Origin: Hyalangium ruber
Lineage (GTDB): Bacteria > Myxococcota > Myxococcia > Myxococcales > Myxococcaceae
Direction of reading: 5' to 3'
DNA: 64,000 nucleotides
NCBI RefSeq assembly: GCF_034259325.1
Contig: NZ_JAXIVS010000002.1
Coordinates: forward strand, 868,001-932,000
This document shows positions 14,533-24,290 of this stretch, piece by piece (positions within the stretch are counted from its first letter, which is position 1; each line of letters begins with the position of its first letter). The position numbers and the translations under genes are program-made. The notes beneath the pieces were generated by a model. It saw only the letters and a program-made list of their open reading frames with translations. It was not told the DNA's origin and ran no database searches.

Positions 14533-15366
14533 ATGCCCGTTACTCCCTACAGCATCGACCCGGACGACCCCCGTGCGCCGCCTCAGGAGGTATGGGAGCG
14601 GATGACGCCCGAGGAGCGGGCTCGCATCGTCGCCAGCCTGCCCTCCGAGTTTCCCGTCTCCGAGGCTTCGCCTCCCGAAGGCGACCCGCACTTCGAGGCC
14701 AAGGCGCGCACGCGAGAGGTGCTGGGGAGCTTCTTCTCCCGCATCGGCCGGAAGGTGTACCTGGCGTGTGAGCTCCCCATCTACTACCCGGGTGAGCCCA
14801 TGTTCGCCCCGGATGTCATCGCCGTGGTGGATGTGGAGACGCACTCCCGCATGCGCTGGGTGGTGAGCGCCGAGGGCAAGGGGATCGACCTCGCCCTGGA
14901 GGTCCATGTCGCGGGCGAGCGGCGCAAGGACCTGGAGAAGAACGTGGAGCGCTACGCGCGGATGGGCATCCGCGAGTACTTCCTGTTCGACCGTGGGCGC
15001 TTGCGGCTGTTGGGCTGGCGCCTGGATGAGGCGCGGCGCAGCTACCGCCCCGTCCTGCCGCAGCATGGGTTCTATACCTCGGAGGTGCTGGGGCTGGAGC
15101 TGCAACTCGAGGGGGAAAAGCTGCGCTTCTACCACGGCCGGGCGCCGCTGCCCGAGGCGGACGAGATGATCGTCACCCTGGAGCGGATGGTGGAGGGCGT
15201 GGAACAGCGCCGTGCGGAGCTCGAACAGCAGCTCGCCGAAGAAGCCCGGCTGCGCACCGAGGAAGCCCGGCTGCGCGCTGAGGAGACCCAGCGCCGTGAA
15301 GAAGCTGAACGCCGGCTGGCCGAGGCACTCTCGGAGCTGGAGCGGCTGCGCGGCGGCCGAAGCTGA
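14533..15366 (+). CDS. Uma2-family (DUF820) putative endonuclease with C-terminal coiled coil
   Basis: 277 residues. The core (about 45-185) matches the Uma2 fold, a PD-(D/E)xK nuclease relative: FAPDVIAVVD, LALEVHVAGERRKDLEKN and GIREYFLFD. In Uma2 the second motif is normally E-x-K/S; here it reads EVHV, so catalytic competence is uncertain. The last 70 residues form a charged coiled coil with near-repeats of EEARLRTEEARLRAEE. Such proteins are abundant in myxobacteria and cyanobacteria with no settled role. There is a weak RBS; ATG 14533 is the first start. Confidence 0.75.
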   Translation: MPVTPYSIDPDDPRAPPQEVWERMTPEERARIVASLPSEFPVSEASPPEGDPHFEAKARTREVLGSFFSRIGRKVYLACELPIYYPGEPMFAPDVIAVVDVETHSRMRWVVSAEGKGIDLALEVHVAGERRKDLEKNVERYARMGIREYFLFDRGRLRLLGWRLDEARRSYRPVLPQHGFYTSEVLGLELQLEGEKLRFYHGRAPLPEADEMIVTLERMVEGVEQRRAELEQQLAEEARLRTEEARLRAEETQRREEAERRLAEALSELERLRGGRS

Positions 15367-22057: not shown

Positions 22058-23895
22058 CGACCGCCGCCCCCCGTCACCCCGTCGAGCTGCGCTACGCCAC
22101 CGCGAGCGAGGTGGAGGCCCGCGCCGAGGCCTCGCGCGTGCTGCTGGCCCTGGAGGGCTCTCGCGGCACCGTGGGCCTGCGCGGCCGGGTGCGCGAGCCC
22201 GCCCTCTTCCGTGACGCCCTGGCCGCCACCCTCGGGGTGCTCGCCAGCGACCTGCGCTACCGGGGCCGGGACCGCACCGCGTACCTCGCCTACCTCATGA
22301 AGCAGGGCAAGCGCGCCACCGCGCAGATCTGGGAGGCGCAGAAGGCGTTCCTGGACGCCTCGCTCCAGAGCGAGGAGCAGAAGGACACGGTGCTGGACCC
22401 CGTGCTCACGGTGGATCCGGATCAGGTGTCCCTGGAGGTCTTCTCCCGAGACGAGAGCGCCTACGCGCGCCTGGCCTTCGACAACAGCCTGTTCGACGGG
22501 CGCGAGGTGGCGCACGGCTCCACCTTCCTGGACGTGCCAGCGGACCTGCTCGCCAAGGTGGACCGGCTGCGCACCTACGTGCCGCTGTCTCTGGAGGCGC
22601 ACGTGGCGCTGCCCGCGCAGCAGGCCCGGGCCCCGCGCAACGTGGAGGTGCCTCACGCGTGGCTGCGCGGCTTCCTCCAGGTGCAGTCGGCGGCCACGCT
22701 GCCGGCGAACACCTGCACGCTGGCCCCCATCGACCTGTACAACCTGCTCTTCGCCCTGCGCACCCGGAAGGCGAAGAAGGCCCCGCGCGCGTTGCGCTTC
22801 GAGCTGGTGCCCGGCGCCCCGCCGCGCATGGTGGTGGAGCCTTGGGAGCTGGTGCTGGAGTGCCACGCCTCGGTGTACACGGGCACCACGCCGGCGGTGG
22901 TGCGCACCTTCGGCCGGCAGCGGCTGTCGGCCCTGGCGCGCCTGCTGCCCCACGCGCAGAGCGTGCGGGTGCAATTGCTGGGCGCGGGCCTGCCGGTGTT
23001 CTGGGTGGTGGACATGGGCGCGGCCACGCTGACGCTGGCGCTCACCGGGTGGACGGAGAGCGGCTGGTCCAGCGCGGCGGCCTTCGACGTGCTCATGCCG
23101 CGCGCGGTGCCGGAGGGGCTCTCGGAGCGGCTGCGCAACCGCCTGCGCGCCGAAGGTCCCCTCTCCTTCGAGACGCTGGTGGCGGGCGCGGGAGCTCCCA
23201 AGGACGCGGTGCGCGCGGCGTTGCAGCTCGAGTGCCTGCGCGGGCGCATCCTCTATGACATCGCCCGGGGCGCGTACCGGCCGCGCGAGCTGATGGCCAC
23301 GCCGGTGGACGAGGCCGTCATCCGCTACGGCAGCGAGCGCGAGGCACGGGCGCACCGGCTGCTGGGCGACGGCGGGGCAGGCGCGGGCGAAGTCAAAGTC
23401 ACCAAGGTGCATGAGGTGGTGGGCGAAGGCACGCGCATCCACGGCGAGGTGGTGGACCGGGAGGCGGTGCGCAGCTTCTTCCCCGTCTTCACGCTGGACC
23501 TGGAGGGCCGGGTAAAGGAGGCGAGCTGCGGCTGCCCGCACTTCCGCCGCTCGGGGATGCGCGAGGGCCCGTGCGAGCACATGATGGCGCTGCGGCTGGC
23601 GTACGCGCGGCGGCGCGCGGAGGAAGAGGCGCTGCGGCAGACGCCGGAGGGCCGTCAGCTCATCCGCGCGGAGACACGGGCGTACGTGCGGCGTGAGGCC
23701 ACCGGGCAGGAGCAGGTGTACCGCGTCTCCCTGGACGGCAAGGTGGTGGCGGTGGAGTGGGGCCCGCGCCTGGGCGAGCCGCGCCGCCAGAAGCTGTGGT
23801 TCGACTCGGATGCCGAGGCGCGCGGGGCCTATTTCGCGCGCCTGGAGGCGTTGGCCTCTGAGGGATACATCGACGCGGCTTCGCTGCTGGTGTAG
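22054..23895 (+). CDS. WHSWIM protein: winged helix plus SWIM zinc finger, retron partner
   Basis: 613 residues from a GTG overlapping the WD40/HEAT gene stop. A long N-terminal region (about 1-350) has no motif I recognise. Residues about 354-410 look like a winged helix (LSFETLVAGAGAPKDAVRAA, then LECLRGRILYDI). A SWIM zinc finger follows with C492-x-C494-x12-C507-x-H509, the signature CxCx(n)CxH. SWIM fingers bind DNA or proteins. The order winged helix then SWIM is the 'WHSWIM' arrangement I recall from retron class XIII. The gene ends 69 bp before the retron a1 repeat. It is a candidate effector or nucleic-acid-binding adaptor of the retron (inference). Confidence 0.88.
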   Translation: MTTAAPRHPVELRYATASEVEARAEASRVLLALEGSRGTVGLRGRVREPALFRDALAATLGVLASDLRYRGRDRTAYLAYLMKQGKRATAQIWEAQKAFLDASLQSEEQKDTVLDPVLTVDPDQVSLEVFSRDESAYARLAFDNSLFDGREVAHGSTFLDVPADLLAKVDRLRTYVPLSLEAHVALPAQQARAPRNVEVPHAWLRGFLQVQSAATLPANTCTLAPIDLYNLLFALRTRKAKKAPRALRFELVPGAPPRMVVEPWELVLECHASVYTGTTPAVVRTFGRQRLSALARLLPHAQSVRVQLLGAGLPVFWVVDMGAATLTLALTGWTESGWSSAAAFDVLMPRAVPEGLSERLRNRLRAEGPLSFETLVAGAGAPKDAVRAALQLECLRGRILYDIARGAYRPRELMATPVDEAVIRYGSEREARAHRLLGDGGAGAGEVKVTKVHEVVGEGTRIHGEVVDREAVRSFFPVFTLDLEGRVKEASCGCPHFRRSGMREGPCEHMMALRLAYARRRAEEEALRQTPEGRQLIRAETRAYVRREATGQEQVYRVSLDGKVVAVEWGPRLGEPRRQKLWFDSDAEARGAYFARLEALASEGYIDAASLLV

Positions 23896-23964
23896 AAAAC
23901 CGGATTATCTGGCCGCTTGCCCCACGGCCGACCAAGGCGGGTGCGACAGGACAAAGACTTCACA

Positions 23965-23986
23965 GCGAGCGATTGAGAGAGGTCCT
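23965..23986 (+). repeat. retron inverted repeat a1
   Basis: 22-nt repeat containing TTGAGAGAGGTCCT at its 3' end. It pairs with a2 at 24221-24242 and would bring the msr 5' end against the msd 3' end, as required for reverse transcriptase priming. Confidence 0.85.
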
Positions 23987-24078
23987 AAAAGTATCAGCCT
24001 CAGCGCCTCGAGCGCGGGAGCGGCGTTGCGCCGCTCTGGAAGCAATGCAGGACACTCTCCGCAAGGTAGCCTGTTCTT

Positions 24079-24180
24079 GGCTCTCTTCCTACGGCCGTAC
24101 TGCTAGCGCGCCAGGGAGCTGAACCAACGACGCAACCGCCGTTTCCCTAGCGCGCTAGCAGTACGGCCGTAGGGAGAGCC
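24079..24180 (+). other. msd long hairpin
   Basis: Arms 24079-24117 and 24144-24180 are complementary over about 37 bp, with one 2-nt bulge (TT) and one mismatch. The loop is 26 nt (24118-24143). The base is extended by GGTAGCC (24065-24071) pairing with GGCTACC (24186-24192). This is the double-stranded part of the predicted msDNA. Confidence 0.85.
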
Positions 24181-24220
24181 GGTGAGGCTACCGTGCCCCA
24201 GGTGAGCAGGTGGTGCCTTC

Positions 24221-24242
24221 AGGGCCTCTCTCGACCGCTCGC
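24221..24242 (+). repeat. retron inverted repeat a2
   Basis: Partner of a1 at 23965-23986. It contains AGGGCCTCTCTCGACC and ends 48 bp before the reverse transcriptase start codon. Confidence 0.85.
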
Positions 24243-24290
24243 GCCTGTCGCCCCCGCCCGACGCCGCCGCACCCGACGCCCGGAGCTGCC

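Follow-up and report, generated by a model that had tools for sequence, protein, structure and literature searches.

A retron locus of Hyalangium ruber carries an msd hairpin whose middle stem is kept at a fixed length and in near-perfect pairing, with an almost free sequence, next to a SWIM protein predicted to contain a clamp fold like that of PCNA. The rare mismatches of the stem seem to follow what selection on the DNA copy would predict. We lean slightly towards reading the locus as a retron that makes a DNA duplex of selected fixed length, which the SWIM clamp would bind independently of sequence and the giant WD40-HEAT protein would hold. The constancy of length across phyla, the DNA-side mismatch pattern, the tandem RNAs and the clamp fold appear to be new here: none of them (constant stem length included) was found among the open-licence papers listed, nor was anything relevant on type XIII, SWIM, WGR or a sliding clamp in connection with a retron.

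The locus and its assignment to type XIII

The first retrons were discovered in 1984 in myxobacteria, and the RNA described here belongs to that original kind. Judged by its sequence, the locus in the window (the whole 64,000-nt stretch of DNA analysed) is a type XIII retron of the Mx162/Sa163 lineage, and membership of both is ordinary, of an already known kind. Its order is HEAT-SWIM-RNA-RT (Table 1). The reverse transcriptase (RT) belongs to the retron group: it scores 75.6 bits against RVT_1 of Pfam, is homologous to the solved Ec86 RT (E 3e-38) and is 87% identical to the RT of Hyalangium versicolor. Beside it lie an msr-msd with a1/a2 repeats and a branch G, the latter assigned by motif only, and the SWIM and HEAT genes that mark type XIII (WGR may stand for HEAT). 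The gene content does not differ from that of the PADLOC type XIII retron (RT, SWIM, HEAT-ARM or WGR). No toxin, nuclease or NAD-cleaving domain was among the families listed for the three window proteins.

The original prediction had placed the RNA in the Mx162/Sa163 class, and the PADLOC matches and the shared RNA layout bear this out. The likeness, judged from published descriptions and from Myxococcus xanthus AM003 (locus L065), includes the CAGC branch motif and the N-terminal RT extension given for Retron-Mxa1 (Mx162) and Retron-Sau1 (Sa163) in passages of a 2019 review (PMC6868368). The M. xanthus RT is 75% identical to that of the window, and the RNA has the same layout, with the same msr and msd borders. 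A covariance model of the msr and the 5' msd strand (R1), built from 13 relatives with the window included, scores 117.4 bits in the window and 117.1 bits in M. xanthus. Passages of the same review give 162 nt for the Mx162 msd and 241 nt for the Mx162 transcript, against an a1-to-a2 span of 278 nt in the window. The middle-stem sequence differs as well.

Table 1. Features of the retron locus in the window, with RNA copies of two Enhygromyxa loci (positions of those loci)
Feature	Position	Strand	Basis or remark
Giant WD40 beta-propeller and HEAT-repeat protein, 2183 aa	15506..22057	+	HEAT-ARM_XIII, 1611 bits (PADLOC)
SWIM_XIII protein, 613 aa	22054..23895	+	535 bits (PADLOC); predicted clamp, winged-helix-like part, SWIM finger, WGR-like C-terminus
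Part of SWIM gene coding for PCNA-like clamp fold, residues 41-340	22174..23073	+	predicted structure
Complete msr-msd	23965-24242	+	between SWIM gene and retron RT gene
a1 repeat of msr	23965..23986	+	sequence read, fold, inverted-repeat search
Predicted branch G	23997	+	in CAGC 23995-23998; by motif only
msr hairpin 1	24003..24015	+	RNAalifold consensus (13 relatives); absent from single-sequence fold
msr hairpin 2	24018..24036	+	single-sequence fold and RNAalifold consensus
msd stem, conserved base, 5' strand	24065..24072	+	partner 24185-24192
msd hairpin segment, 102 nt	24079..24180	+	7 bp, TT bulge, 29-bp middle stem, 28-nt loop
Variable middle stem, 5' arm	24088..24116	+	
Conserved loop with tip hairpin	24117..24144	+	
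Variable middle stem, 3' arm	24145..24173	+	
a2 repeat	24221..24242	+	sequence read, fold, inverted-repeat search
Retron reverse transcriptase, 485 aa	24291..25748	+	RT_XIII, 537 bits (PADLOC)
Enhygromyxa msr-msd copies downstream of RT	L102 11428-11811; L089 11422-11820		

Layout and fold of the msr-msd RNA

The main structural claims of the original prediction were recovered. The a1 and a2 repeats pair over 22 nt, including one A.C mismatch and two G.U wobbles, and an inverted-repeat search found a longer arm pair on the a1/a2 side (32 nt at 78%). Of the two msr hairpins expected after a1, hairpin 2 was present in the single fold and hairpin 1 in the consensus of relatives. The near-perfect msd stem of about 37 bp with a 26-nt loop corresponds to an inverted repeat, 24083-24117 with 24144-24178, whose arms are 94% complementary and 26 nt apart. 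Within the msd segment, 7 bp are followed by a 2-nt bulge (24086-24087) and then by 29 bp plus a loop-closing A-T, with a single C.A mismatch in the middle stem (24112/24149). The element folded better than all dinucleotide shuffles both as RNA (z = -11.2; 0 of 200 as good) and as the msd DNA strand (z = -9.9; 0 of 200).

The position of the branch G and the conserved borders are consistent with a predicted msDNA of about 160 nt. CAGC is present in those relatives whose alignment rows show the msr (the rows of L075, L077, L078 and L092 do not), and more distant relatives have TAGC. An Rfam search of the whole window gave 0 families at gathering score. An extra 15-nt inverted repeat (93%) lies outside a1/a2, at 23936-23950 and 24244-24258; by eye, close relatives retain part of it, so the transcript may have an additional stem around a1/a2.

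The msd stem is constant in length and variable in sequence

Segments of msd were taken between two conserved flanking motifs, which fix the borders of a segment and leave its length and pairing free. This gave 74 distinct segments, one of which (L087) is N-masked and was excluded from all counts; no length was taken for loci lacking the exact flanking motif (e.g. L103, L110, L160, L165). All 73 measured segments, from myxobacteria to Competibacteraceae, are 101 nt (46) or 102 nt (27) long. Two further segments, found later, are also 101 nt.

A fixed register of 7 bp, a 1-2 nt bulge, 29 bp and a 28-nt loop was imposed on the elements without fitting; L076, with two copies, no bulge and another register, was excluded. 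In the 71 remaining elements, 2017 of 2059 middle-stem cells were Watson-Crick, 11 were G.T and 31 were other combinations. Ten of the 11 G.T cells were at position 1, where the bulge can shift. Mismatches were limited to positions 1 and 21-29, and positions 2-20 showed 0 non-Watson-Crick cells in 1349. Slid registers gave 30-36% Watson-Crick pairs and column shuffles 44%. Among 35 less-related elements, 25 of the 29 positions showed all four Watson-Crick pairs. Parsimony on the RT tree (70 elements, without L139, which has no RT in its locus, and L076, both also left out of distance counts) gave 383 two-sided changes from one Watson-Crick pair to another and 16 changes into a non-Watson-Crick state; cells and events alike include relatives and are not fully independent. 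Compensatory changes among relatives, whose absence the original prediction had named as evidence against it, are therefore strongly present. A compensated stem was probably already noticed in older comparative work on myxobacterial msDNA.

Divergence of the middle stem tracked or exceeded the rate at RT four-fold sites. Stem distance was 0.12 at RT four-fold-site distances of 0.05-0.10 (5 pairs), 0.15 at 0.10-0.15 (11 pairs), 0.25 at 0.15-0.20 (40 pairs), 0.24 at 0.20-0.25 (84 pairs), 0.37 at 0.25-0.30 (197 pairs) and 0.52 at 0.3-0.4 (540 pairs). The msr differed by 0.7-7% up to a four-fold distance of 0.3. As a change in the stem always involves both arms, this rate implies frequent paired point mutations or a contribution from template switching in the genomic hairpin.

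The arms also have a compositional bias. In 35 less-related arms, TA steps numbered 50 against 20 expected (2.5 times the shuffle mean) on a GC-rich background. CTAG occurred at 10.8/kb in stem arms and 0.25/kb in the window, which is not above dinucleotide shuffles, and palindromic 4-mers numbered 114 against 89 expected from such shuffles. With stricter thinning of relatives the TA excess persisted and that of palindromes became marginal (0.019 at 17 arms, 0.044 at 13). Enrichment of CTAG and palindromes was accordingly dropped as a strong signal, and the TA excess alone was retained.

Tandem RNAs with different stems

Several loci carry two complete RNAs in line, with different stems: L004 (genome G081), L006/L049 (Hyalangium versicolor), L033/L082, L038/L086, L076 and L089. 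In L089 both lie 3' of the RT; L102 has three RNAs, two 3' of the RT and one upstream. In genome G132 a complete copy is accompanied by a truncated one with another stem, and G185 has three R1 matches. Genome G045 was dropped as a two-RNA genome because its contig ends inside the hairpin, and extra R1 matches of G052 and G133, at contig ends, were not counted as tandem copies.

Between the copies of L004, L006, L033 and L038, 61-64% of stem positions and 1-8% of msr positions are different (msr compared position by position without gaps). The copies of L089 differ by 64% in the stem and 11% in the msr. The three pairs of L102 differ by 7-43% in the stem and 12-13% in the msr; its two downstream copies, at 7% against 12%, go against the pattern. 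Inspection of L004 and L049 by eye shows leftover sequence from the 3' end of SWIM between the copies, so the duplication probably took in the tail of that gene together with the RNA. In the window there is a single copy, the only one in its 10.8-Mb genome, and its stem is closest to that of the first H. versicolor copy (25% different), which suggests that the window lineage may have lost one RNA.

Apparent selection on the DNA copy and competing explanations

RNA helices generally tolerate G.U pairs. A fold-based census of G.U pairs in all 73 elements counted 221 against 2770 Watson-Crick pairs in the outer helix on the a1/a2 side, 83 against 1045 in the msr hairpins and 1 against 2149 in the middle stem. 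The conserved base stem, with 135 against 1152 and present in 73 of 73 elements, is an exception within the msd. The outer helix also holds 119 A.C or C.A mismatches, so C.A alone is not peculiar to the stem, and the contrast lies in the missing G.U. By parsimony, the 16 mismatch events of the middle stem comprised 10 C.A or A.C, 1 G.U and 5 others. A C.A or A.C in RNA becomes G.T in the DNA copy, and G.U in RNA becomes A.C. Ten against one gives about 0.01 in a two-sided sign test, on a small count. The mismatch pattern thus seems to match the prediction of selection on the DNA strand. Such a pattern could offer a general way, using sequence alone, to tell hairpins that act as RNA from those that act as a DNA copy.

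These counts bear most directly on the idea that the stem is kept as RNA because RT initiation or termination needs the folded template, with the DNA copy as a by-product. The transcript fold is very stable, the msr and outer helices are conserved RNA structures and the conserved msd base retains G.U pairs, but the tolerance for G.U seen in the outer helix and msr hairpins is missing from the middle stem, and the rare mismatches there are mostly those that become G.T in DNA; we regard this explanation as very improbable. Pairing of mostly mutational origin is less far-fetched, if still unlikely: template switching in the hairpin would copy changes to the other arm, and the palindrome would drift without strong selection. 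Consistent with this, the middle stem changes at or above the RT four-fold-site rate though every change is double (0.12 at 0.05-0.10; 0.25 at 0.15-0.20), neighbouring pairs often change together (by eye) and stem intermediates are nearly absent. The msd length nevertheless stays at 101 or 102 nt, mismatches keep to positions 1 and 21-29 and TA steps are enriched; template switching may also add to selection without replacing it.

The variable stem could instead be bait for phage methylases or nucleases, diversified in an arms race, with tandem copies widening the repertoire. The TA, CTAG and palindrome counts and the divergent stems beside similar msr in the tandem copies of four loci would fit, and the msDNA stem of Ec86 is a target of a phage methyltransferase, according to passages of PMC13158370. 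However, CTAG is not above dinucleotide shuffles, the palindrome excess weakens under stricter thinning, the stem rate is near synonymous and not clearly faster, and two copies of L102 differ less in stem than in msr. We doubt this explanation as much as the mutational one. Slightly more doubtful still is a retron that serves as a myxobacterial housekeeping element and not as a defence system. All three of RT, RNA and HEAT are present in 65 of 147 class genomes, persisting even where RT and HEAT lie far apart, and vertical inheritance is the view taken in passages of the 2019 review (PMC6868368); other retron types, on the other hand, act in phage defence, as passages of PMC13158370 report.

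A predicted clamp fold in the SWIM protein

A model of the SWIM protein built from a 25-sequence alignment reached a pLDDT of 84.2 and a pTM of 0.85. The predicted structure of residues 41-340 matched PCNA in Foldseek (E 1.2e-6); almost all of the best 50 matches listed had a target TM-score in the range 0.58-0.68. Compared with PCNA by VIA, the same residues gave Z 15.8 and an rmsd of 2.7 A over 213 residues, and Z was at least 8 in 528 of 1000 chains. A homologue model made from 15 distant sequences (Nannocystis first, the window left out) had a pLDDT of 76.5 and gave Z 15.1 over 215 residues. In a BFVD search most top matches were viral clamp proteins. The SWIM protein is thus predicted to contain the two-domain fold shared by PCNA and DNA sliding clamps.

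At the level of sequence, the PCNA family was absent from the 23 Pfam families listed for 25 SWIM members at E up to 10 (a search in which the HMMER filters drop most matches above E of about 0.1), and PDB sequences searched with a profile (E up to 1) yielded three other proteins and no clamp. We therefore use the term clamp-like fold and do not call the protein PCNA. Unlike PCNA, to which no sequence similarity was found, the clamp part is joined to further parts. Secondary structure and weak Pfam matches past the clamp (DprA_WH in 5 of 25 members, a SWIM finger in 21 of 25, a WGR-like end in 2 of 25 with a best E of 0.09) point to a winged helix, a SWIM finger and a WGR-like end. A PHROGs search with the SWIM proteins of the window and two relatives gave weak matches alone (E 0.12 or worse).

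A possible mechanism

We know of no function or phenotype for type XIII retrons. Passages of the 2019 review (PMC6868368) call retron function poorly understood. In passages of PMC13158370, known retrons hold an effector through the msDNA stem-loop and release it when phage factors modify, degrade or bind the msDNA; in Ec86 (Eco1), Eco8 and Ec83 the stem-loop contacts the effector. The window RT is homologous to that of Ec86, whereas the partner proteins of these three systems differ from those of the window.

In the reading we favour, a fixed-length DNA duplex held by a clamp, the RT would prime at G23997, as the family suggests, and synthesise about 160 nt of msDNA, which would form a rigid hairpin. 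From the present analysis, selection on the middle of the hairpin would preserve a DNA duplex that is perfectly paired and constant in length, with little regard to its sequence. The PCNA-like domain of SWIM would bind or close on this duplex without reading it, probably as a ring of several SWIM copies, and the conserved base and tip may delimit the duplex on either side. The complex would be held by the giant WD40-HEAT protein, which would then act itself or recruit an effector. Damage, modification or removal of the msDNA by phage might release the effector, by analogy to other retrons only.

A protein that surrounds a duplex needs a perfect helix of given length and reads no sequence, which is the reason for proposing a clamp on a measured duplex. 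That the SWIM clamp in fact encircles a length-calibrated, sequence-free duplex as holder or sensor of the msDNA, with tandem RNAs giving several hairpins, is a more tentative proposal, which we make with some reserve. The suggestion of the original prediction that the partner proteins may recognise the long duplex is indirectly supported, because the stem appears to be kept as a near-perfect, fixed-length DNA duplex and a clamp fold is predicted for SWIM. The predicted clamp and the putatively DNA-selected stem provide a concrete candidate binding partner for this retron type, and the old question of its function becomes directly testable through them.

Distribution and co-occurrence

The RT served as query against 147 class genomes, and HEAT-ARM_XIII and R1 against 195 genomes of the phylum; co-occurrence was counted by hand from the search tables, the genome of the window included. 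The RT scored above 500 bits in 65 of the 147 class genomes. HEAT-ARM_XIII reached at least 513 bits in the same 65, the match being divided between contigs in G068, G082, G095 and G133; the best score among the remaining class genomes was 93 bits. The R1 RNA was also matched in the same 65. Outside the class, the HEAT protein was present in four genomes (G151, G161, G162 and G185), three of which also had R1.

The named-genome scan covered 80 loci, the best 80 of 137 relatives, among them Sorangium, Enhygromyxa, Nannocystis, Competibacteraceae, and planctomycete and Verrucomicrobia bins. SWIM presence, counted by tblastn in these named loci, was seen in 68 of 80. Eleven of the 12 misses had fewer than 720 bases before the RT match; the remaining one, Archangium violaceum (L067), lacked both SWIM and HEAT over the 10 kb preceding the RT. 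In genus g3 the RT and RNA are displaced from HEAT, by 5-7 kb in G043, G047 and G048 and by 62 kb in G044 (2.2 kb between RT and HEAT in the window), and in G043 (locus L043) SWIM was seen beside HEAT. Phage records searched with the SWIM protein and with the RNA gave no match.

In five Competibacteraceae loci (L088, L090, L095, L098 and L101) HEAT follows the RT, at a distance of several kb, instead of preceding it. A distant branch (Nannocystis, Planctomycetes and others: L112-L114, L116, L117, L119, L121-L128) has a gap of 14-119 nt between SWIM and the RT match. An R1-like RNA was not found by the covariance model or a de novo hairpin search in the distant-branch loci examined. Repeats in L075 and L077, considered as candidate RNA, were taken for mobile sequence.

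Other retrons in the genome and a neighbouring gene

The genome of the window carries a second type XIII retron (L046 5234-13245, contig C4), with scores of 625 bits for RT_XIII, 783 for SWIM_XIII and 1126 for WGR_XIII. It encodes a WGR beta-propeller protein and has its own msr-msd with a shorter compensated stem. We dropped the view that the stem of this WGR-type paralogue is conserved in sequence, as the alignment shows compensated changes there too. Its SWIM protein is of the same family, yet its msd stem is shorter and less perfect, with an indel among relatives; such a protein alone therefore does not demand a perfect stem of fixed length. A third retron-like RT (G000:C12:248838-249770, in L047) is 44% identical over about 330 residues. 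In the window, a Uma2-family gene (a putative restriction endonuclease in Pfam) lies at 14533-15366, directly 5' of the HEAT gene.
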